This document shows positions 21,222 to 58,786 of a DNA stretch of 58,786 nt, piece by piece. The DNA is from Rouxiella silvae (GTDB lineage Bacteria; Pseudomonadota; Gammaproteobacteria; Enterobacterales; Enterobacteriaceae), in contig NZ_MRWD01000032.1 in NCBI RefSeq assembly GCF_002093625.1, forward strand, positions 1 to 58,786. The letters run 5' to 3'. The notes under the pieces were generated by a model, which was given only the letters and a program-made list of their open reading frames with translations, was not told the origin of the DNA and ran no database searches. A program made the translations under genes and the position numbers. Within the stretch, counting starts at the first letter, position 1, and every line of letters begins with the position of its first letter.

Positions 21222-22577
21222 ATGACTTCTCACCTCTCTTTAAGCCTGCATCAGGCGATTGAACAACTGGCTCTCGGCAACGTAACCGCAGAGCAATTGA
21301 CCGAGCAGGCGCTGGCCAATATCAACGCCGTTGAGGGTGAAGGCGCGCTGGCGTTTACCCACGTTTATGCCCCGTGGGCGCGTAAACAGGCGGCGGCTTC
21401 CGCGCAGCGCCGGGCTTCAGGGGCTGCACTTTCACCTATCGACGGCGTGCCGATTTCGATTAAAGACCTGTTTGACGTAAAAGGTGAAGCGACCACCGGC
21501 GGCTCACGTGTGTTGGCCGATATGCCTGTCGCCCCCTCGCATGCCGCCATCGTCGACTTACTGCTCAAAGCCGGTGCCGTAATAGTGGGAAAAACGAATA
21601 TGACCGAATTTGCCTACTCGGGTCTCGGCATTAATCCGCACTACGGTACGCCTGCGAACCCGTGGGATCGCGACTCGCGCCGCATTCCGGGTGGCTCATC
21701 CTCCGGTGCCGCCGTTTCAGTCAGCGATGCCATGTGTTTTGGCGCAGTCGGCAGTGACACCGGTGGATCGGTGCGCATTCCGGCAGCGTTTTGTGGCCTT
21801 ACCGGATTTAAACCCACGGCGCGCAGAATTTCGATGGACGGCGTGTTGCCACTCTCCGGCTCTTTAGACTCAGTGGGAACTATTGCCCAAGACGTGGCGA
21901 GCTGCGTTGCGCTGGACGCTGCAATCGCGCATCGGCCTCTATCGCTGACGGTAAAAAAGCTCGCCGACGCGCATTTTGCGATTCCCCAGACTGTCGTGCT
22001 CGACGGCCTAGACGCACAGGTGACCACTGCTTTCGCGCATGCGGTACAGGCGCTTAAGCAGGCCGGTGCAAAGGTTTCTGAAATTCCTCTAACAGAAATC
22101 GCCGAGCTGGCCACCATTAACGCCACCGGTGGCTTTACCGCACTGGAGTCATGGGCCTGGCACAAACCGCTTATCGAACAACGTGCCAACGACTATGACC
22201 CGCGCGTGGTGTCACGCATCCGCCGCGGTGAGCCGCTGGGTGAAAGCGATCGCCAGCGTTTAGTCGAGCAGCGTGCCGACTGGCAGCAGCGCGTCAGTAG
22301 CAAGGTCCAACAGTATGACGCCTTGTTAATGCCGACTGTGCCTTTTATTGCTCCCACGATTGTCGAGCTGGAAGCCGACGAAGAGGCCTATTTCCGTGTT
22401 AATGGCGCGGCGCTGCGCAATCCGTCGGTGATTAACTTCCTGGACGGCTGTGCGGTGTCGCTACCTTGTCATGCACAAGGTGATGCACCGGTGGGTTTGA
22501 TGGTGGCTGCACTGCCGATGCAGGACGAGGCGCTAATGAGCTGGACGTTGGAAATAGAACGCTGCCTTAAAGTTTAA
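21222..22577 (+). CDS. Amidase signature family hydrolase
   Basis: 451 residues. It has the complete Ser-cisSer-Lys triad of the amidase signature family: Lys81 in PISIKDLFDV, cis-Ser159 in the GGSSSG loop (157-162) and nucleophile Ser183 in SDTGGSVRIPA. The enzyme should hydrolyse a carboxamide to acid plus ammonia; the substrate cannot be read from sequence. It is not GatA, since no gatB or gatC partner is present. It lies 43 bases after the DUF2848 gene and is part of the GntR-controlled cluster that ends with an MFS importer. Confidence 0.88.
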   Translation: MTSHLSLSLHQAIEQLALGNVTAEQLTEQALANINAVEGEGALAFTHVYAPWARKQAAASAQRRASGAALSPIDGVPISIKDLFDVKGEATTGGSRVLADMPVAPSHAAIVDLLLKAGAVIVGKTNMTEFAYSGLGINPHYGTPANPWDRDSRRIPGGSSSGAAVSVSDAMCFGAVGSDTGGSVRIPAAFCGLTGFKPTARRISMDGVLPLSGSLDSVGTIAQDVASCVALDAAIAHRPLSLTVKKLADAHFAIPQTVVLDGLDAQVTTAFAHAVQALKQAGAKVSEIPLTEIAELATINATGGFTALESWAWHKPLIEQRANDYDPRVVSRIRRGEPLGESDRQRLVEQRADWQQRVSSKVQQYDALLMPTVPFIAPTIVELEADEEAYFRVNGAALRNPSVINFLDGCAVSLPCHAQGDAPVGLMVAALPMQDEALMSWTLEIERCLKV

Positions 22578-24789: not shown

Positions 24790-25001
24790 CTGAAACACTC
24801 GTGACAACTTGCAACCTTGAAAGCGATTTAATGCAGGCCCCGCCACAGATCTTGAATTTACCATTTCACCTTATCTCATTTTTTTTTGACAAATATCACA
24901 CGGCGAGCGCGGCGATAAGACCGCGTGGCCCGCTATGAAGCAACGCGCATTCAGAAAGCTTGCGGTTGCGTATCTTATTCACTATCGGGAAGGGGAAAAA
25001 A
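24790..25001 (+). promoter_or_regulatory. Promoter region of the DeoR/rare-sugar genes, CRP-like site
   Basis: No gene is seen here. 24885-24900 reads TTTGA-N6-TCACA, one base off the CRP consensus, which would fit a catabolite-controlled sugar operon. A TTGACA hexamer overlaps it (24886-24891), but I see no convincing -10 at the right distance. GGGAAGGGG (24988-24996) is the ribosome binding site of the DeoR gene. Confidence 0.35.
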
Positions 25002-52697: not shown

Positions 52698-54482
52698 ATG
52701 ACTAAAGCAATGAAGAAAGTAGATGCAGTCATCGTCGGTTTTGGTTGGGCCGGTTCAATTATGGCCAAAGAGCTGACCGAAGCCGGTTTGAGCGTGGTTG
52801 CGCTTGAGCGTGGCCCGAGCCGAGATACCTATCCAGACGGCGCCTATCCGCAGGTAGTGGATGAGCTGACCTATAACATTCGTAAAAAGCTGTTCCAGGA
52901 CTTGTCGAAAAGCACCGTGACTATTCGTCACAACGTGACCCAGACCGCCTTACCTTATCGCCAACTTAATGCGTTTCTTCCTGGGACCGGTACCGGTGGT
53001 GCAGGTCTGCACTGGTCAGGCGTGCATTTCCGCGTGGATCCTGTCGAACTGAACCTGCGCAGCCACTATGAAGAACGCTACGGCAAGAAATTTATTCCTG
53101 AGGGTATGACCATTCAGGACTTCGGCGTTAACTATAACGAGCTGGAGCCGTTCTTCGACAAAGCTGAGAAAGTGTTTGGTACTTCCGGTTCGCCGTGGAC
53201 GATTAAAGGTCAGCTAGTTGGCAAAGATAAAGGCGGAAATCCGTTTGCGCCAGACCGCTCCGACCGTTTCCCGCTTCCGGCACAAAAACGCACTTATTCT
53301 GCCCAACTGTTTGCTCAGGCGGCGGAGTCGGTGGGGTATCATCCTTACGATCTGCCATCGGCCAACACCTCAGGCCCTTATACCAACACCTACGGCGCAC
53401 AGATGGGCCCGTGCAACTTCTGCGGATACTGCAGCGGCTATGCGTGCTACATGTATTCCAAAGCTTCACCGAACGTCAATATTCTGCCGTCGCTGCGTCA
53501 GGAGTCTACGTTTGAGCTGCGCAACAACGCCTACGTGCTGCGTGTTAACCTAACGGGTGACAAAAAACGCGCGACCGGCGTGACCTACGTGGACGCGCTG
53601 GGCCAGCAGGTTGAGCAACCCGCTGACCTGGTTATTCTCTCTGCGTTCCAGTTCCACAACGTTCACCTGATGCTACTTTCCGGCATCGGTAAACCTTATG
53701 ATCCGGTGACCAACGAAGGTGTAGTGGGCCGCAACTTTGCCTACCAGAACCTGACCACCATCAAAACCTTCTTTGAGACCGACAAGTTCACCAACACCTT
53801 TATAGGTGCCGGTGGAGCAGGGGTGGGCGTCGACGATTTCAACGCCGACAACTTCGATCATGCCAAATACGGCTTTGTCGGCGGCTCGCCGTTCTGGGTA
53901 AACCAGGCCGGTTCCAAGCCGATTTCAGGTTTGCCGATCCCTCCAGGTACGCCAAACTGGGGCAGCAAGTGGAAGGCCGCGGTAGCCGATGCTTATACTC
54001 ATAACGTTTCAATGGATGCCCACGGGGCGCATCAGTCTTATCGTGCTAACTATCTTGACCTCGACCCTACCTACAAAGACGTCTACGGCCAGCCGCTGCT
54101 GCGCATGACCTTTGACTGGCAGGAAAATGACGTGAAGATGTCGCAATTTATGTACGACAAGATGCACAAGATTGCCGAAGCGATGAACCCGAAACTGATC
54201 ACCGGCGCGCCTAAAAATGCCAATACGCATTTTGACAGCACGGTTTATCAGACCACCCACATGAATGGCGGGGCGATTATGGGCGAAGATCCAAAAACCA
54301 GCGCCGTTAACCGCTATTTGCAAAGCTGGGACGTGCACAACGTCTTTGTGCCGGGCGCCTCCGCTTTCCCGCAGGGACTGGGCTATAACCCAACTGGCAT
54401 GGTGGCAGCATTGACTTACTGGTCTGCAAAAGCAATTCGTGAGACCTATTTGAAAAACCCAGGCCCACTGGTACAGGCATAA
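52698..54482 (+). CDS. Gluconate 2-dehydrogenase FAD (GMC) subunit
   Basis: 594 residues, GMC oxidoreductase. The FAD motif is VIVGFGWAGSIMAKEL (residues 11-26). A cysteine cluster GPCNFCGYCSGYACY (about residue 237 onward) resembles the 3Fe-4S-binding segment of bacterial FAD-dependent sugar dehydrogenases. The C-terminal GMC segment has the expected catalytic His residues (THMNGGAIMGEDP) and NPTGMVAALTYW. It oxidises D-gluconate (or a related sugar acid) at C2 in the periplasm. Gluconate versus 2-ketogluconate cannot be told apart by eye. Confidence 0.9.
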   Translation: MTKAMKKVDAVIVGFGWAGSIMAKELTEAGLSVVALERGPSRDTYPDGAYPQVVDELTYNIRKKLFQDLSKSTVTIRHNVTQTALPYRQLNAFLPGTGTGGAGLHWSGVHFRVDPVELNLRSHYEERYGKKFIPEGMTIQDFGVNYNELEPFFDKAEKVFGTSGSPWTIKGQLVGKDKGGNPFAPDRSDRFPLPAQKRTYSAQLFAQAAESVGYHPYDLPSANTSGPYTNTYGAQMGPCNFCGYCSGYACYMYSKASPNVNILPSLRQESTFELRNNAYVLRVNLTGDKKRATGVTYVDALGQQVEQPADLVILSAFQFHNVHLMLLSGIGKPYDPVTNEGVVGRNFAYQNLTTIKTFFETDKFTNTFIGAGGAGVGVDDFNADNFDHAKYGFVGGSPFWVNQAGSKPISGLPIPPGTPNWGSKWKAAVADAYTHNVSMDAHGAHQSYRANYLDLDPTYKDVYGQPLLRMTFDWQENDVKMSQFMYDKMHKIAEAMNPKLITGAPKNANTHFDSTVYQTTHMNGGAIMGEDPKTSAVNRYLQSWDVHNVFVPGASAFPQGLGYNPTGMVAALTYWSAKAIRETYLKNPGPLVQA

Positions 54483-54492
54483 GGATATCGCT

Positions 54493-55824
54493 ATGAAAAC
54501 ATTACTTTCTGCCTTGTTCTTGGGATCGGTGGCCTTTGCTGCCTTGGCCGATGATAACGCCAATGCGGACCTGATTAAACGCGGTGAATATCTGGCGAGA
54601 GCCGGTGACTGTGTTGCCTGCCATACCACCGCGGGCGGCAAGCCGTTTGCAGGTGGGCTAAAAATGGTCACCCCGATAGGGGCTATTTATTCCACGAACA
54701 TCACACCGGATAAAACCAACGGTATTGGCGATTATACGCTCGAAGATTTTGAAAAAGCAGTGCGTAAAGGTGTGGCGAAAAACGGTCAAACGCTGTATCC
54801 GGCGATGCCGTTCCCGTCCTATTCCGTAGTGAGCGATGAAGATATGAAGGCGCTGTATGCCTACTTCATGCACGGCGTTGAGCCGGTTGCCGAACCTAAC
54901 CGTGACAGCGATATTCCGTGGCCGCTCTCTATGAGATGGCCTCTGGCTATCTGGCGTACCGCTTTCGCGCCGAAGGTGCAGCCTTTCGCCGGTAAACTTG
55001 ATGAAGACTCGCAGCTTGCGCGCGGCCGTTATCTGGTTGAAGGCCTGGGTCACTGCGGCGCTTGCCACACCCCGCGCAGCATCACTATGCAGGAAAAAGC
55101 CATGAACAATGGCGAGGGCAATAACTTCCTCTCCGGCAGTGCTGCGCCCGTCGATGGCTGGACCGCCAGCAATCTGCGTGGCGATAATCAGGACGGATTG
55201 GGTCGCTGGAGCGAAGACGATCTGGTGCAGTTCCTGCGCACCGGCCGTAACGATCACACCGCCGTATTTGGCGGCATGACCGACGTGGTGAAACACAGCT
55301 TGCAGTACCTGACGCCGGAAGACGCCACGGCAATCGCTCGCTACCTTAAGTCGCTGGATGCCAAAGACAGCAGCAAACCGGCCTTCAAGCCGGACGACAG
55401 CGTGGCAAAAGCGCTGTGGAAAGGTGACGACAGCAAACCCGGCGCCGCCGTGTATGTTGACAGCTGCGCCGCGTGTCACAAGACCGATGGCACTGGCTAT
55501 AAGCGCTTCTTCCCAGAGCTGAAAGGCAATCCGGTGGTGCTGGCGAAAGATCCAACGTCGCTTATCCACATCGTGCTGACCGGTAATACATTGCCGGGCG
55601 TTATCGGTGCACCTTCGAACATCACCATGCCTGCTTTCGGCTGGCGTTTGAACAACCAGCAGGTGGCAGACGTGGTGAAATTTATCCGCACCAGCTGGGG
55701 CAACATGGCGCAAGAACCCGTCACCGCCGACGATGTCAAAAAGATCCGTGAAGACAAAAATGTCATCACCAATCCAAAACAGTTAGGTAATCAGAATATC
55801 GAACTGCTGACGCCGATTGAGTAA
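54493..55824 (+). CDS. Gluconate 2-dehydrogenase cytochrome c subunit
   Basis: 443 residues with an N-terminal signal peptide (cleavage after AALA, residue 18). Three heme c sites are visible: CVACH (about residue 38), CGACH (about 186) and CAACH (about 325). The subunit passes electrons from the FAD/Fe-S subunit to ubiquinone at the outer face of the inner membrane. AAGGA precedes the ATG. The operon order gamma-FAD-cytochrome is standard for membrane-bound gluconate dehydrogenases, and it ends at a very strong terminator. Confidence 0.93.
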   Translation: MKTLLSALFLGSVAFAALADDNANADLIKRGEYLARAGDCVACHTTAGGKPFAGGLKMVTPIGAIYSTNITPDKTNGIGDYTLEDFEKAVRKGVAKNGQTLYPAMPFPSYSVVSDEDMKALYAYFMHGVEPVAEPNRDSDIPWPLSMRWPLAIWRTAFAPKVQPFAGKLDEDSQLARGRYLVEGLGHCGACHTPRSITMQEKAMNNGEGNNFLSGSAAPVDGWTASNLRGDNQDGLGRWSEDDLVQFLRTGRNDHTAVFGGMTDVVKHSLQYLTPEDATAIARYLKSLDAKDSSKPAFKPDDSVAKALWKGDDSKPGAAVYVDSCAACHKTDGTGYKRFFPELKGNPVVLAKDPTSLIHIVLTGNTLPGVIGAPSNITMPAFGWRLNNQQVADVVKFIRTSWGNMAQEPVTADDVKKIREDKNVITNPKQLGNQNIELLTPIE

Positions 55825-56036: not shown

Positions 56037-56110
56037 GCGGGTGTAGTTCAATGGTAGAACGGTAGCTTCCCAAGCTGCATACGAGGGTTCGATTCCCTTC
56101 ACCCGCTCCA
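56037..56110 (+). tRNA. glyU: tRNA-Gly (anticodon CCC)
   Basis: 74 nt including an encoded CCA end. Acceptor stem GCGGGTG pairs with CACCCGC; the D-arm has AGTTCAATGGTAGAACG-type sequence; the anticodon loop TTCCCAA gives CCC (56069-56071); the T-arm contains GGTTCGATTCC. It matches E. coli glyU, a tRNA gene often used as a phage or island attachment site. An integrase gene starts 135 bases downstream. Confidence 0.97.
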
Positions 56111-56244
56111 TGACCTTTCTTAAAGCATCTCAATTTACTGAATCCTAAGGGATATGGCTCAAAGCCTTCCGATAGTTTTACTCACTGTAACCAACACTGT
56201 GACTAACTTTGTTGACGTAGTGAGCGGACCTAAGGTCTCAGTAC
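56085..56244 (+). other. Probable attL region between tRNA-Gly and integrase
   Basis: The 3' part of the tRNA (from about 56085) is the likely recombination core, as usual for tRNA-targeting tyrosine recombinases. No second copy of this segment occurs in the window, so the right junction lies beyond 58786. Between tRNA and integrase are short imperfect direct repeats GTAACCAAC (56187-56195) and GTGACTAAC (56199-56207), inside CTCACT/AGTGAG inverted arms (56181, 56219), possible arm-type integrase sites. A CTTAAAG heptamer lies at 56119-56125. Confidence 0.5.
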
Positions 56245-57852
56245 ATGCTCAACTCAATAACCTATCTTTATCAGCGCAATGGCGTCTTCTATATCCGACT
56301 TAGGATGAAGGCTATTGGTCGCTTTCCGGCTTCGCTTCCACAACATAAACGTTATAAACTTACGTCAGTATCATTACGGACCAAGGACAGGCGTACCGCT
56401 ATGGCTCACTCTCGGCACATCAAGGCAGCACTAAAAGTAATCCATGCAGACCGACCTGATGCCACCTATGAGGAAATGAGGGGGCACCTTAGGGAAGTTG
56501 CAGAGTGGGAACTTTCAACGGGACGTTCAGACCTATTCGAGCCAGACATGAGAGATCTCTATCGGGACCAGTACAGCGAATTAGGCGAGAGCCTTACTGA
56601 TGCGCTGGCGAGTGAACCCCTGAACATTGACCAGCATCGTTACATCAATGAGGCTCTGGAAGTGCTCAAGGCGTGCATGAAACGCATCGAAGCTGGAGAC
56701 AGTAAGCCTCTTATAGATTACGTCGATGGATTTAATGATGTTAGTCGTTCAAGTGATCAAACCTCTGCTTCATTATCTGTAAATGCTCCAGAAGTTAATT
56801 CCGGGGTCACTGTAGCGAGCCTCTTTGAGCAATACGAAGCGGAAAACGCTCAGAACTGGAAGCCAGCCACCTTAAAAGAAAACAAAGCGTCCCACGCTAC
56901 ATTAATTGAAATCTTCGGCTATCTCGGTCTCAATGCTGATGCTAATAGGGCCGATATACTCAAGGTTCGTGATGTGCTCCAACAGTTACCGAAGAATCGT
57001 AAGCAGCGCTTTAAGGATATCCTGTTGGTTGACCTGCTGAGTCGTGAAGATAAGACTGATTGTCTTGATGTGGTCACTATCAATAATAAATATCTTATTA
57101 AGATGGCGGCTGTCTTCAAGTGGGCTTTACGCAACGACCTGATCAAAAAGAATATGACTGAGGGTCTGGAACTGAAGGTTCCTCAGCGTAAAGCTTCAGA
57201 GGCCCGTAATGCTTTCTCTACGGTGCAAGTAAATCAACTATTGGATGCCGCCCAAGTTTACTCACAAAAGCCTTCTGGTAAGCCCTATCACTATTACGTT
57301 ACCGTTTTGGCTGCTATCACTGGAGCAAGACTTAATGAAGTAGCTCAGCTACAGGTCAAGGATGTCAGGGCCACGGAAGTCGGAACCGTTTATATCCATA
57401 TCAATGAAGATGACAGTAGCTTACCCGGTAAGAGCATCAAGAATGCCCACAGTGATCGCTGTGTGCCTCTGGTCGATGGAGCCTATGGTTTTGTATTGGC
57501 TGACTTTATGACGCTTGTAGAAGCCCGTAGTAATACTGGTGGGGGGGATGCTATGGTGTTTAATGAACTTCGCCTCATGAAGAATGGTTACGGTGAGCAG
57601 GTAAGCAAATGGTTTAACCGGACGTTGTTACCTAAGGTTATTATTGACCGTGACGGATTGGCGTTCCACTCGTTCAGGCATACAGTTGGGAACCAGTTAA
57701 GACAACATGGGGTTGAATTGGCGTATGCTCAGGCGATTATGGGTCATAGCTCAGGATCAATTACCTATGACCGCTACGCTAAAGAGGTTGAGGTAGATAG
57801 ATTGGTTAATGTAATGGCAGAAATTTATAAGGAGATTGGATTAAATGGCTGA
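56245..57852 (+). CDS. Tyrosine recombinase / integrase
   Basis: 535 residues, longer than typical phage integrases. It opens with [20 protein letters not shown], a DUF6538-like N-terminal segment. After a core-binding domain (about 190-290) comes the catalytic domain with Arg in [12 protein letters not shown], His-x-x-Arg in [11 protein letters not shown], the second His in MGHSSG and Tyr in [10 protein letters not shown]. The catalytic set looks intact. It lies just downstream of tRNA-Gly, pointing away from it. Codon and base use are visibly more AT-rich than in the gluconate genes, consistent with horizontal gain. It overlaps the DUF4145 gene by 8 bases. Confidence 0.9.
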
Positions 57853-58480
57853 GTATTTCCCAGCAGTTTTTGAAGGCGAGGCTTTTAATTGTCCATATTG
57901 CGGGGTTTATGCTCGGCAATTTTGGCGTACATTATTCGGTAATGGTCAGCATATGGTGTCAAAGGATACACCCTTCAAGATGTCGTCATGTTCACATTGT
58001 GGCGACAGTGCCTATTGGTTCGAAGAAAAAATGATGGTCCCTGCTGCGGGTAATGTTGAGTTGCCTAATCAAGACATGCCGGAAGACTGCAAGGCTGATT
58101 ACATGGAAGCCCGAAGTATTATCAATCTGTCTCCTAAAGGGGCCGCAGCGCTTCTCCGTCTGTGCCTCCAGAAACTGATGGTCCACTTAGGCGAGCCGGG
58201 GAATAACATTAACGCTGATATTAAGTCTCTCGTTGAGAAGGGGCTGCCTCCTCGTATCCAGCAAGCAGCAGACATATGTCGAATTGTTGGTAATCAGGCC
58301 GTTCATCCCGGAGAGATTAGCCTTGATGACGATCCACAGTTAACACACGGTCTCTTTAAGCTGCTGAACATCATTGTCGATGACCGAATTACGAGACCAA
58401 AGGAAATCGAAACGATGTTCCAGAGTATGCCTGAGGGACCACGGCAAGGCATTGAGAATCGGGACAAAAAGAGTGCTTAA
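57845..58480 (+). CDS. DUF4145-type zinc-ribbon protein
   Basis: 211 residues, no signal peptide. The N-terminal part has two CxxC knuckles, CPYCG (about residues 17-21) and CSHCG (about 49-53), forming a zinc ribbon. The helical C-terminal part contains the DUF4145 core ([21 protein letters not shown], split near 97-117; [12 protein letters not shown] near 145). DUF4145 proteins are often found on mobile elements and next to restriction or defence genes; no activity is known. The gene overlaps the integrase stop by 8 bases, so the two are co-expressed. Confidence 0.75.
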
Positions 58481-58493
58481 GGTAATACAGACC

Positions 58494-58516
58494 TAATACG
58501 ACTCACTAAGGGGAGA
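58494..58516 (+). promoter_or_regulatory. T7-type phage RNA polymerase promoter
   Basis: 58494-58508 reads TAATACGACTCACTA, identical to the first 15 bases of the T7 consensus promoter. 58509-58510 is AG instead of TA, and 58511-58516 is GGGAGA as in T7. So 21 of 23 positions match, including the specificity loop contact region and the initiation GGGAGA. The two changes lie just upstream of the start site. It lies 14 bases after the DUF4145 stop and points rightwards into sequence outside the window. Host RNA polymerase does not use such promoters, so a phage-type polymerase gene is expected nearby. Confidence 0.8.
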
Positions 58517-58786
58517 GGGAAGACAATAAAGTGTTTCCTCTATGAAAATTAACCGTAACTTATCGCATCCTTTCAGGGGCGGGATGACCAATTTACAGAC
58601 ACCAAGCGTTCTACTTAAAGAATGCTTCCTGTGTGCTCTGGGTCAGTCGATAAGTGAATAGCAATAGAAATCATATTTAATTATGGTCTCTGGTCTACAG
58701 GGGCTTAAACTTAAAGATTTACTTAAAGACCATTAAGATACTTAGAGTTTAATTAATTGTTTTAATTAAAAGATAATCATTAAAAG
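58517..58786 (+). other. AT-rich non-coding region with CTTAAAG repeats
   Basis: No convincing gene here. ACTTAAAG occurs exactly three times (58613-58620, 58709-58716, 58721-58728), with related CTTAAAC (58704-58710) and ACTTAGAG (58740-58747). T7-group phage genomes carry arrays of similar CCTAAAG heptamers beside their terminal repeats and early promoters. A 39-codon frame (58542-58661) has no ribosome binding site. The last 50 bases are almost all A and T. Together with the T7-type promoter it looks like the early control region of a T7-like genome. Confidence 0.5.

Follow-up and report, generated by a model that had tools for sequence, protein, structure and literature searches.

At the right-hand end of a Rouxiella silvae contig, a tRNA-Gly(CCC) gene, an integrase gene and a T7-type promoter lie close together, which raises the question of what kind of element combines them. 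Classical T7-group phages are strictly lytic and have no integrases; integrase-bearing relatives of T7 are known among marine and a few other phages, with int near the RNA polymerase gene. An earlier note had offered two answers, a temperate T7-like prophage or an element that parasitises or responds to T7-like phages. The second is well supported by promoters of several specificities, by phage end and junction sequences and by a T7-defence family. We conclude that a satellite of T7-group (Autographiviridae) phages has very probably integrated here and that the window (the whole stretch of 58,786 nucleotides analysed) contains its left part.

The locus and its integration target

The reported order of tRNA-Gly, intact tyrosine recombinase, DUF4145 gene and T7-type promoter was confirmed (ARAGORN, PF00589, PF13643 and a consensus scan, respectively). 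The contig stops at 58786, leaving only the left part of the element in the window. The features are as follows:

56037..56110, + strand: tRNA-Gly(CCC), the integration target (ARAGORN)
56088..56110, + strand: attL core TTCGATTCCCTTCACCCGCTCCA, the tRNA 3' end, repeated at the far end of complete relatives
56180..56205, + strand: ACTCACTGTAACCAACACTGTGACTA, probable integrase arm-site region (sequence reading)
56245..57852, + strand: tyrosine recombinase (integrase), 535 aa, ATG start, open (PF00589 4.6e-16; phrog_1 6.1e-41)
56763..56782, + strand: diverged T7-group right-end/concatemer-junction sequence CTCTGCTTCATT/ATCTGTAA inside int (phage-end matrix)
57845..58480, + strand: DUF4145 protein of the PD-T7-4 defence family, 211 aa, its start overlapping the int end
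58494..58516, + strand: T7-group RNA polymerase promoter TAATACGACTCACTAAGGGGAGA, predicted start about 58511 (consensus scan, phage matches)
58549..58776, + strand: conserved non-coding block downstream of the promoter (similarity to elements L006 and L037)
58614..58728, + strand: CTTAAAG repeats at 58614, 58710 and 58722 (motif count)
58671..58786, no strand: AT-rich tract, a possible helper-primed replication origin, cut by the contig end (composition)

The direct repeat of the tRNA 3' end expected to mark attR is present in complete relatives, where the second core copy lies at 24820 (L002), 24506 (L003), 24347 (L004) and 6969 (L006), but the Rouxiella silvae assembly has a single copy only, and searches of it for the right half of the element gave nothing beyond the window. 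Repeats of the form TGTAACCAT..TGTAACC, similar to the putative arm-site region, sit just within attR of relatives. The tRNA-Gly(CCC) gene was found in 17 of the 22 related stretches scanned and not in L034, L036, L041, L042 and L043. Homologues of the integrase in related elements are 66-87% identical; L081 has a 29% identical integrase, another integration target and a junction at a different position within int. The joined attP pattern had 0 matches in viral_contigs.

Complete relatives are small, with no recognised polymerase, terminase or tail gene

Eight complete elements from E. coli and Klebsiella measure 4.2-6.4 kb between the att cores. The same compact gene order recurs across several genera, and elements in Klebsiella and E. 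coli are 93-96% identical. Since all the elements are related and some are near-identical, counts of elements given below are not independent. Neither the annotation nor the ORFs examined of complete relatives contained a recognisable phage RNA polymerase, terminase or tail gene. Likewise, no replication, terminase or tail families were recognised in the scanned ORFs of the elements; these ORFs resemble Ant/Rha/KilA-N-type regulators or DUF6971, or have no match. A search of the Rouxiella silvae genome for the RNA polymerase family was also empty, which says little because its control likewise matched nothing. The elements show the general marks of satellites: an integration module of their own (with att repeats in complete relatives such as L002, L003, L004 and L006, the window representing the left half), no recognisable autonomous-phage gene set in the ORFs scanned, and cis signals of a helper.

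Larger members carry a second cassette and a conserved protein of 326-395 aa. This protein gave no match of weight in PDB, Pfam, PHROG or phages and none to T7 gp10, so that these comparisons left its candidate identity as a capsid protein unconfirmed; the 375-aa protein of Klebsiella had no relative in viral_contigs. In the same collection, the L033 protein and alignment A1 matched L081 and L082. We also considered the variable third and fourth ORFs as known defence genes and rejected this, as their PADLOC matches were all weak: the KilA-N protein of L004 hit PD-T4-2_B at 4.3e-5, and the protein of L002 a type I specificity model at 0.011.

The DUF4145 gene belongs to the PD-T7-4 family

The DUF4145 ORF matches PF13643 at 1.4e-14 and the PADLOC model PDLC04109 PD-T7-4 at E=6.1e-102, with residues 1-209 aligned to positions 1-209 of the 211 in the model. 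With this nearly full-length match the protein is a member of the PD-T7-4 family, and it is predicted to restrict T7. According to the relevant passages of the original report, the family was found through selection for T7 defence, each system lowered plaquing of its selecting phage, and the PD-T7-4 gene, reported to defend against T7, frequently overlaps an integrase (Vassallo et al. 2022, PMC9519451). The passages compared describe no element ends, promoters or packaging signals, and the terms 'T7 promoter' and 'PICI' are absent from the main text (PMC9519451). Within our set, PD-T7-4 is missing from L013, L015 and L016 and missing or below threshold in L081, L095, L096, L099 and L100; where present, it stands upstream of the element promoters. 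The window protein had no relative in viral_contigs.

Promoters of several T7-group specificities

The window promoter, read as TAATACGACTCACTAAGGGGA at 58494-58514, has two mismatches to the T7 consensus, with 0.00 matches expected in shuffles; a 31-base match, 93.5% identical, links it to T7-group phages, Ebrios and IME15 among them (E=2e-3). It represents the AAGGGGAGA variant. Across 392 genomes from the family, the exact T7 pattern TAATACGACTCACTANNGGGA has a single occurrence, at this locus, and the Kayfunavirus pattern is present in two genomes; all three promoters lie within these elements. A scan of genome_contigs returned seven loci with the T7 pattern, six of them with cloning-vector tags; the seventh is a complete element of Klebsiella pneumoniae. 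At least three specificities (T7, K11 and Kayfunavirus) can be recognised among the promoters of relatives, all at one place downstream of int and pointing toward the variable downstream ORFs. The L099 promoter has weak phage matches in 20 records, the best E being 0.6 among the matches listed.

According to the earlier note, neighbouring DNA with neither a phage-type RNA polymerase nor further T7-type promoters would refute its interpretation. In relatives the polymerase is indeed unseen, but extra promoters are present: two in L003 and L004 and four in L006, compared with one in the window copy. Longer homology of the 347-base promoter block to a phage region was discarded, as the best matches were promoter-length or short and weak. 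A helper of the Ebrios type was likewise discarded for the window promoter, as Ebrios has the junction ATCTGTT and the window ATCTGTA.

The non-coding block that follows the promoter shares 79% identity with the Klebsiella element L006 across 233 bases and 98.5% with L037 across 68 bases. Of the claims made for this region, the AT-richness holds: the last 116 bases are 76% AT versus 48% for bases 1-56000, and matching blocks of four relatives are 73-79% AT. For the CTTAAAG repeats the picture is mixed. The heptamer is found in this position in the E. coli and Klebsiella relatives too (it is absent in the Kayfunavirus-type L033, L038 and L039), but the number of repeats is weak evidence, as the 10 copies in the whole window (5.75 expected) were reached in 7 of 100 shuffles. 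In T3 and K11, the heptamer directly follows phiOL.

Sequences resembling phage ends and concatemer junctions

The elements also contain matches to both ends of the T7-group terminal repeat, near attR and within int. These were scored with right-end and left-end matrices made from phage ends only, with P taken from 1000 Markov simulations and with right borders placed by eye where attR was not found. Of 24 elements, 21 have a right-end/junction match with P<=0.005 and another has one with P=0.025; these 22 score 14.5-30.7 versus a best score of 11.3 on 42 host control strands. The window junction scores 16.2 (P=0.004), and in L006, L017 and L036 the junction is CTCTGTGTCCCT/ATCTGTTA, the same as in T7. 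Among the 24 elements, L035 and L100 have no clear right-end match, L100 scoring higher on the wrong strand (14.3). Left-end matches reach P<=0.002 in 10 of the 24, every one from E. coli or Klebsiella; in L006, 35 of 44 bases match the T3 left end. Left-end scores of Kayfunavirus-type elements (about 14) are not above the best host control strand (14.9). No significant left-end match was seen in seven of the 24, the truncated window included, and in two more the best match lies in other sequence.

The last base of the junction mostly tracks promoter type. As in phages, ATCTGTT occurs in 8 of 10 elements with T7/K11-type promoters and ATCTGTA in all six with Kayfunavirus-type promoters. In the window the junction reads CTTCATT/ATCTGTAA: it has diverged and belongs to the 'A' type although the promoter is T7-type, a mismatch that L002 shares. 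Because the junction is diverged and mismatched to the promoter, the single promoter carries two changes from consensus and the right half is absent, the window copy may be defective. Synonymous-codon conservation at the int junction is unexceptional (rank 33 of 524 windows, with 49 of 477 anchored blocks as high or higher) and was rejected as proof of selection at the DNA level.

Weighing the explanations

The best reading of these sequences is that the elements are satellites which would be induced through the RNA polymerase of a helper and packaged through mimicked concatemer junctions. The same data might be read as a small integrated defence island, in which PD-T7-4 and accessory genes are moved by other means and never packaged, and T7-group promoters serve as sensors of infection. 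PD-T7-4 is indeed a defence family, the promoters face the variable downstream ORFs, and a phage promoter could well serve an infection-triggered defence gene. However, several elements have no PD-T7-4, and where the gene occurs the promoters lie downstream of it. Nor does a defence island explain why T7-group end sequences stand near attR and within int, why they covary with promoter type, or why larger members have a second cassette. We therefore regard it as unlikely.

A decoy function, in which promoters and junctions titrate the RNA polymerase and terminase of the helper and lower phage yield with no gain in transfer of the element, would draw on the same promoter, end and junction sequences as the satellite reading, and the PD-T7-4 family also acts against T7. 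Nevertheless, a few chromosomal sites would presumably titrate little, and the integrase, the att repeats and the close identity of Klebsiella and E. coli elements argue for horizontal movement, making a decoy very improbable. As for a temperate T7-like prophage or its decayed remnant, an integrase adjoining a T7-type promoter and the presence of T7-group junction sequences count in its favour. Yet the small size of the eight complete relatives measured and the gene content of the annotation and ORFs examined, together with a compact order kept in several genera, led us to reject it, and we give it next to no credence.

A proposed satellite cycle

For the satellite reading, the following cycle can be proposed. 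The element's own integrase would place it at the 3' end of tRNA-Gly(CCC), in keeping with the att repeats of relatives. When a matching T7-group phage infects, its RNA polymerase would transcribe from the element promoters, which lie downstream of int and of the slot that in the window holds PD-T7-4. This transcription would turn on the downstream genes and probably prime replication in the AT-rich block. Excised and replicated DNA would then form head-to-tail copies. Along these, transcription could pass through the left-end sequence, then attP and the 5' portion of int, as far as ATCTGT(T/A). In T7, phiOR, left end, terminal repeat and concatemer junction follow one another in just this order and on this strand. 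Helper terminase would cut at both mimicked ends, the predicted cut ends for an E. coli element of the L004 type being CTA/TCTAATAGT and TCCCT/ATCTGTT. The expected product is a linear molecule of about 5.1-7.4 kb, whose direct repeat, holding attP, is predicted to span about 0.92 kb. It would be packaged in helper-made heads or, in larger members, perhaps in heads built with their own conserved 326-395-aa protein. After injection, the repeats and int would re-establish the integrated state, and in elements that have it, PD-T7-4 would hold the helper back or shield the host. Since the element has the start and packaging signals of T7-type phages, it would be carried to new cells by the very phages that kill its host.

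Relation to known satellites

No natural satellite of T7-group phages was found in the open-access literature searched. Taken jointly, it seems reasonably probable that these elements are satellites undescribed in that literature, present in at least eight genera of the family and specialised on strictly lytic T7-group phages. They would be switched on directly by the helper polymerase and packaged via copies of the helper junction, one of which lies inside int, with cut ends flanking attP. Promoter and junction types would mostly have been swapped jointly so as to suit helpers of the T7, K11 or Kayfunavirus type, and larger members may build small heads of their own.

Few phages have been studied as thoroughly as T7, whose promoters are in daily laboratory use. 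If the reading is true, chromosomal parasites take the RNA polymerase of a lytic phage as their exit signal and travel by its packaging signals, PD-T7-4 gains a home and a role in a contest between satellite and helper, and all this lends itself to direct tests with T7 in laboratory strains of E. coli. The promoter sets would be a readable record of the helper to which each element has adapted.

Known satellites have their own hallmarks. PLE are defined by core genes and dependence on ICP1, PICIs by an AlpA/Stl regulator and a primase-replication module, to which cf-PICIs add terminase and head genes, and P4-like satellites by a P4-type primase-helicase and P2 helper signals. As described in the part of the literature compared, PLE are chromosomal satellites of the lytic phage ICP1 in Vibrio cholerae; upon infection they excise, replicate and are mobilised, and they restrict the phage (PMC7145576). 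The present elements would resemble them as chromosomal satellites of a lytic phage, but host and helper differ, and the proposed helper link is the RNA polymerase and the concatemer junction. PICIs and cf-PICIs, the latter described as encoding head and packaging genes (PMC13230959, in the part compared), are likewise small integrase-bearing islands, whereas AlpA/Stl-type regulator, primase, terminase and portal were unrecognised in the ORFs scanned here. P4-like satellites share integration and carriage of defence genes, as the passages compared describe (PMC9122126), but their helpers are P2-like, and no P4 primase-helicase or Psu-type match was present among the ORFs scanned here.

The closest parallel in signals is artificial. 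Going by the title of Chung and Hinkle 1990, plasmids that carry a T7 origin together with the concatemer junction are reportedly packaged during T7 infection. The pair of signals is alike, but those plasmids are laboratory constructs, whereas the elements described here are natural and integrating, with a putative origin.

The element and its relatives

The order given in the earlier note, namely tRNA-Gly(CCC), an intact tyrosine recombinase, a DUF4145 gene, a T7-type promoter and an AT-rich CTTAAAG tract, is present in full within the last 2.75 kb of the contig. The recombinase gene (int) is an open reading frame of 535 aa, its end is overlapped by the start of the DUF4145 gene (211-aa product), and the promoter starts 14 bases past the end of the latter, followed by the AT-rich tract with its CTTAAAG repeats. 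The contig (G000:C54) stops exactly at 58786. A direct repeat of the tRNA 3' end, which would mark attR, is present in complete relatives, although a search of the window's assembly found neither attR nor the right half of the element. The window copy is cut short by the assembly and may be partly decayed. Judged by their translations, the two ORFs directly upstream of the tRNA gene (52698-55824) would encode a GMC-type oxidoreductase and a cytochrome c with several haems.

Some part of the query is matched in 385 of 5,426 E. coli genomes, and at least 80% of it in 127, always on the chromosome. The complete copies from E. coli (L002, L003, L004) and from Klebsiella pneumoniae ATCC 13883 (L006) are bounded on one side by tRNA-Gly(CCC) and on the other by a repeat of the tRNA 3' end. 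Of eight copies measured between att cores, six span 4.2-4.8 kb, L013 (with an insertion sequence inside) 5.8 kb, and L006 6.4 kb. In E. coli strain 5735 (L003 20001-42883), two copies about 19 kb apart, the second running off the end of the retrieved sequence, flank another island, one of whose genes has the annotation phage capsid protein. Identity between the Klebsiella element and one in E. coli DDG206, whose copy carries an insertion sequence, is 93-96%; this similarity suggests recent transfer between genera.

In the window's family, presumably Enterobacteriaceae, the DUF4145 protein is present in 12 of 392 genomes from 11 genera, the window's genome counted. An integrase adjoins its gene in eight of the 11 stretches from the other genomes and is absent in three (L034, L041, L042).

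Promoters

In all eight stretches with an integrase, promoters resembling those of the T7 group lie on the + strand, downstream of the DUF4145 gene; the sole match in the three stretches lacking the integrase is one minus-strand site in L034. Promoter specificity varies among elements, being T7-type in E. coli, and both T7-type and K11-type in Klebsiella; the K11-type assignment uses the K11 consensus, and phiOL of the K11 record is close. The promoter of L033 and L039, CTTAACTATCACTATAGGGAGA, has close variants in L038, L040 and L095, and matches Kayfunavirus phages (Dev2, EcoDS1 phiOR and others; best E=7e-6). Promoters of this type were found in 24 IMG/VR stretches, every one on a 39-41 kb contig. 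Two phage records, named as Enterococcus phage IME_EF3 and Staphylococcus phage MBBL139, also match this sequence and may carry a wrong label or contamination. The L096 promoter type weakly matches (E=1e-2) sites in ICP3-group phages, 14-17 per genome, and phage matches of the L099 promoter are weak.

Within the 392 family genomes, the exact T7 pattern occurs in one, that of the window, and the exact Kayfunavirus promoter in two, both times within elements. A scan of genome_contigs gave seven T7-pattern loci, one being the Klebsiella element and the other six each bearing one or more cloning-vector tags. These six (L007-L012) look like vector contamination of assemblies.

Packaging-end sequences

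The right end of the terminal repeat (slash) in the fetched phage records reads GTGTCCCT/ATCTGTTAC in T7, GTGTCCCT/ATCTGTTAG in T3, GTGTCCCT/ATCTGTTGG in K11 and GAGTCTCT/ATCTGTATA in EcoDS1; the K11 and EcoDS1 records label this place 'concatemeric junction'. In K1F and Dev2 the boundary, placed by similarity, is GAGTCTCT/ATCTGTATC and GAGTCCCT/ATCTGTATC, respectively. ATCTGTT is the site at which RNA polymerase pauses in the packaging of T7 DNA. The junction sequence lies inside int of the elements: in L006, L017 and L036 it is CTCTGTGTCCCT/ATCTGTTA, the same as T7 over 20 bases, and in elements with Kayfunavirus-type promoters it is TCCCT/ATCTGTAT. A sequence corresponding to the left end of T7, ACCATAAAAATCTGAGTGACTA/TCTCACAGT, lies near attR, such as CCTACAAAAATCTGAGCGTCTA/TCTAATAGT in L002. 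Here L006 agrees with T3 at 35 of 44 bases; agreement with EcoDS1 is 29 of 44 in L033 and L039, loci of other types reaching at most 26.

Matrices built from phage ends only were run against 24 elements, with 1000 Markov simulations for each and with right borders set by eye where attR had not been located; the resulting counts are not independent, as the set includes several near-duplicates and all its members belong to one family with shared descent. The right-end match had P<=0.005 in 21 elements and P=0.025 in L040, and was not significant in L035 and L100. For the left end, P was <=0.002 in 10 elements and 0.023-0.031, near the far end, in five (L033, L039, L040, L081, L095); the best match fell on other sequence in L036 and L038, and was not significant in seven (L035, L037, L043, L096, L099, L100 and the cut-off window copy). 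Since the best scores among 42 host control strands were 11.3 (right) and 14.9 (left), the right-end matches are clear of background, whereas Kayfunavirus-type left ends (about 14) are not.

Promoter type and junction type mostly go together. ATCTGTT is found in eight of the 10 elements with T7/K11-type promoters (L003, L004, L006, L017, L018, L019, L036, L037, of which L006 and L017, as well as L004 and L018, are near-identical), and ATCTGTA in all six with Kayfunavirus-type promoters (L033, L038, L039, L040, L095 and L081, the promoter of the last being imperfect). The count omits L014 (the same element as L002), L035, L043, L096, L099 and L100 (other promoters), and L013, L015 and L016 (promoters outside the scan). 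The two exceptions are L002 and the window, and the L002 junction, ATCTGTAA, resembles that of the window. L002, from E. coli H7, also has two T7-like promoters (22448-22570), each changed from consensus. Its altered promoters and window-like junction point to decay or else to a fit with some helper phage not seen here.

The most independent case for the end sequences is L081 (1134-7300), whose integrase is 29% identical to that of the window. It sits between the two parts of a gene whose sequence reads as being of the DMSO-reductase type. Its junction, CTCCCT/ATCTGTAT, lies about 60 bases into int versus about 500 elsewhere, and a left-end sequence is near its far end.

A possible satellite cycle

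If the element formed a circle or a head-to-tail array, one strand would carry promoters, variable ORFs, the left-end sequence, attP, the start of int and the junction. This order would parallel phiOR, left end, terminal repeat and junction in T7, with a predicted terminal repeat of 916-941 bp in the eight elements measured. Of the two possibilities raised in the earlier note, a temperate T7-like prophage or an element parasitising or responding to T7-like phages, the latter agrees with the T7-group promoters and end sequences. Judged from sequence, these fit a satellite of T7-group phages that would be induced by the helper RNA polymerase and packaged via mimicked helper junctions. Anatomy, promoters, end sequences and PD-T7-4 homology are observed directly; from them we infer satellite induction, replication, cutting, packaging and transfer. 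Titles and abstract beginnings listed by searches of the open-access literature describe no satellite of T7-group phages.

Gene content

Over nearly its whole length, the DUF4145 protein fits the PADLOC model of PD-T7-4, a family reported by Vassallo et al. 2022 (PMC9519451). Its gene is absent from L013, L015 and L016, and the protein has no match in the records that gave L081, L095, L096, L099 and L100. Because it is missing from several elements, the gene appears to be cargo that occupies a slot behind int. These gaps leave the satellite reading as probable as before, since promoters and end sequences are what it rests on. PD-T7-4 homologues 47-81% identical to that of the window also occur in L034, L041 and L042, with neither a nearby integrase nor + strand T7-group promoters.

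The third ORF encodes an Ant-, Rha- or KilA-N-type regulator, the family changing between elements. It is preceded by a hairpin conserved in 10 aligned elements (L006 3951-4030, for example), with both-side changes in four of 15 pairs and a small covariation term; the hairpin perhaps serves RNA processing or translation control. Larger members have, in addition, a small ORF, a charged protein of 136-196 aa (DUF6971 in L006 and L017) and a conserved protein of 326-395 aa. The last, a possible capsid protein, is found in 10 of 392 genomes and matched no recognised family in family searches. L081 carries the same kind of cassette, consisting of a regulator, a DUF6971-like protein and a 328-aa protein. 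In L082 (1-3400), the same cassette adjoins a gene similar to the one interrupted in L081.
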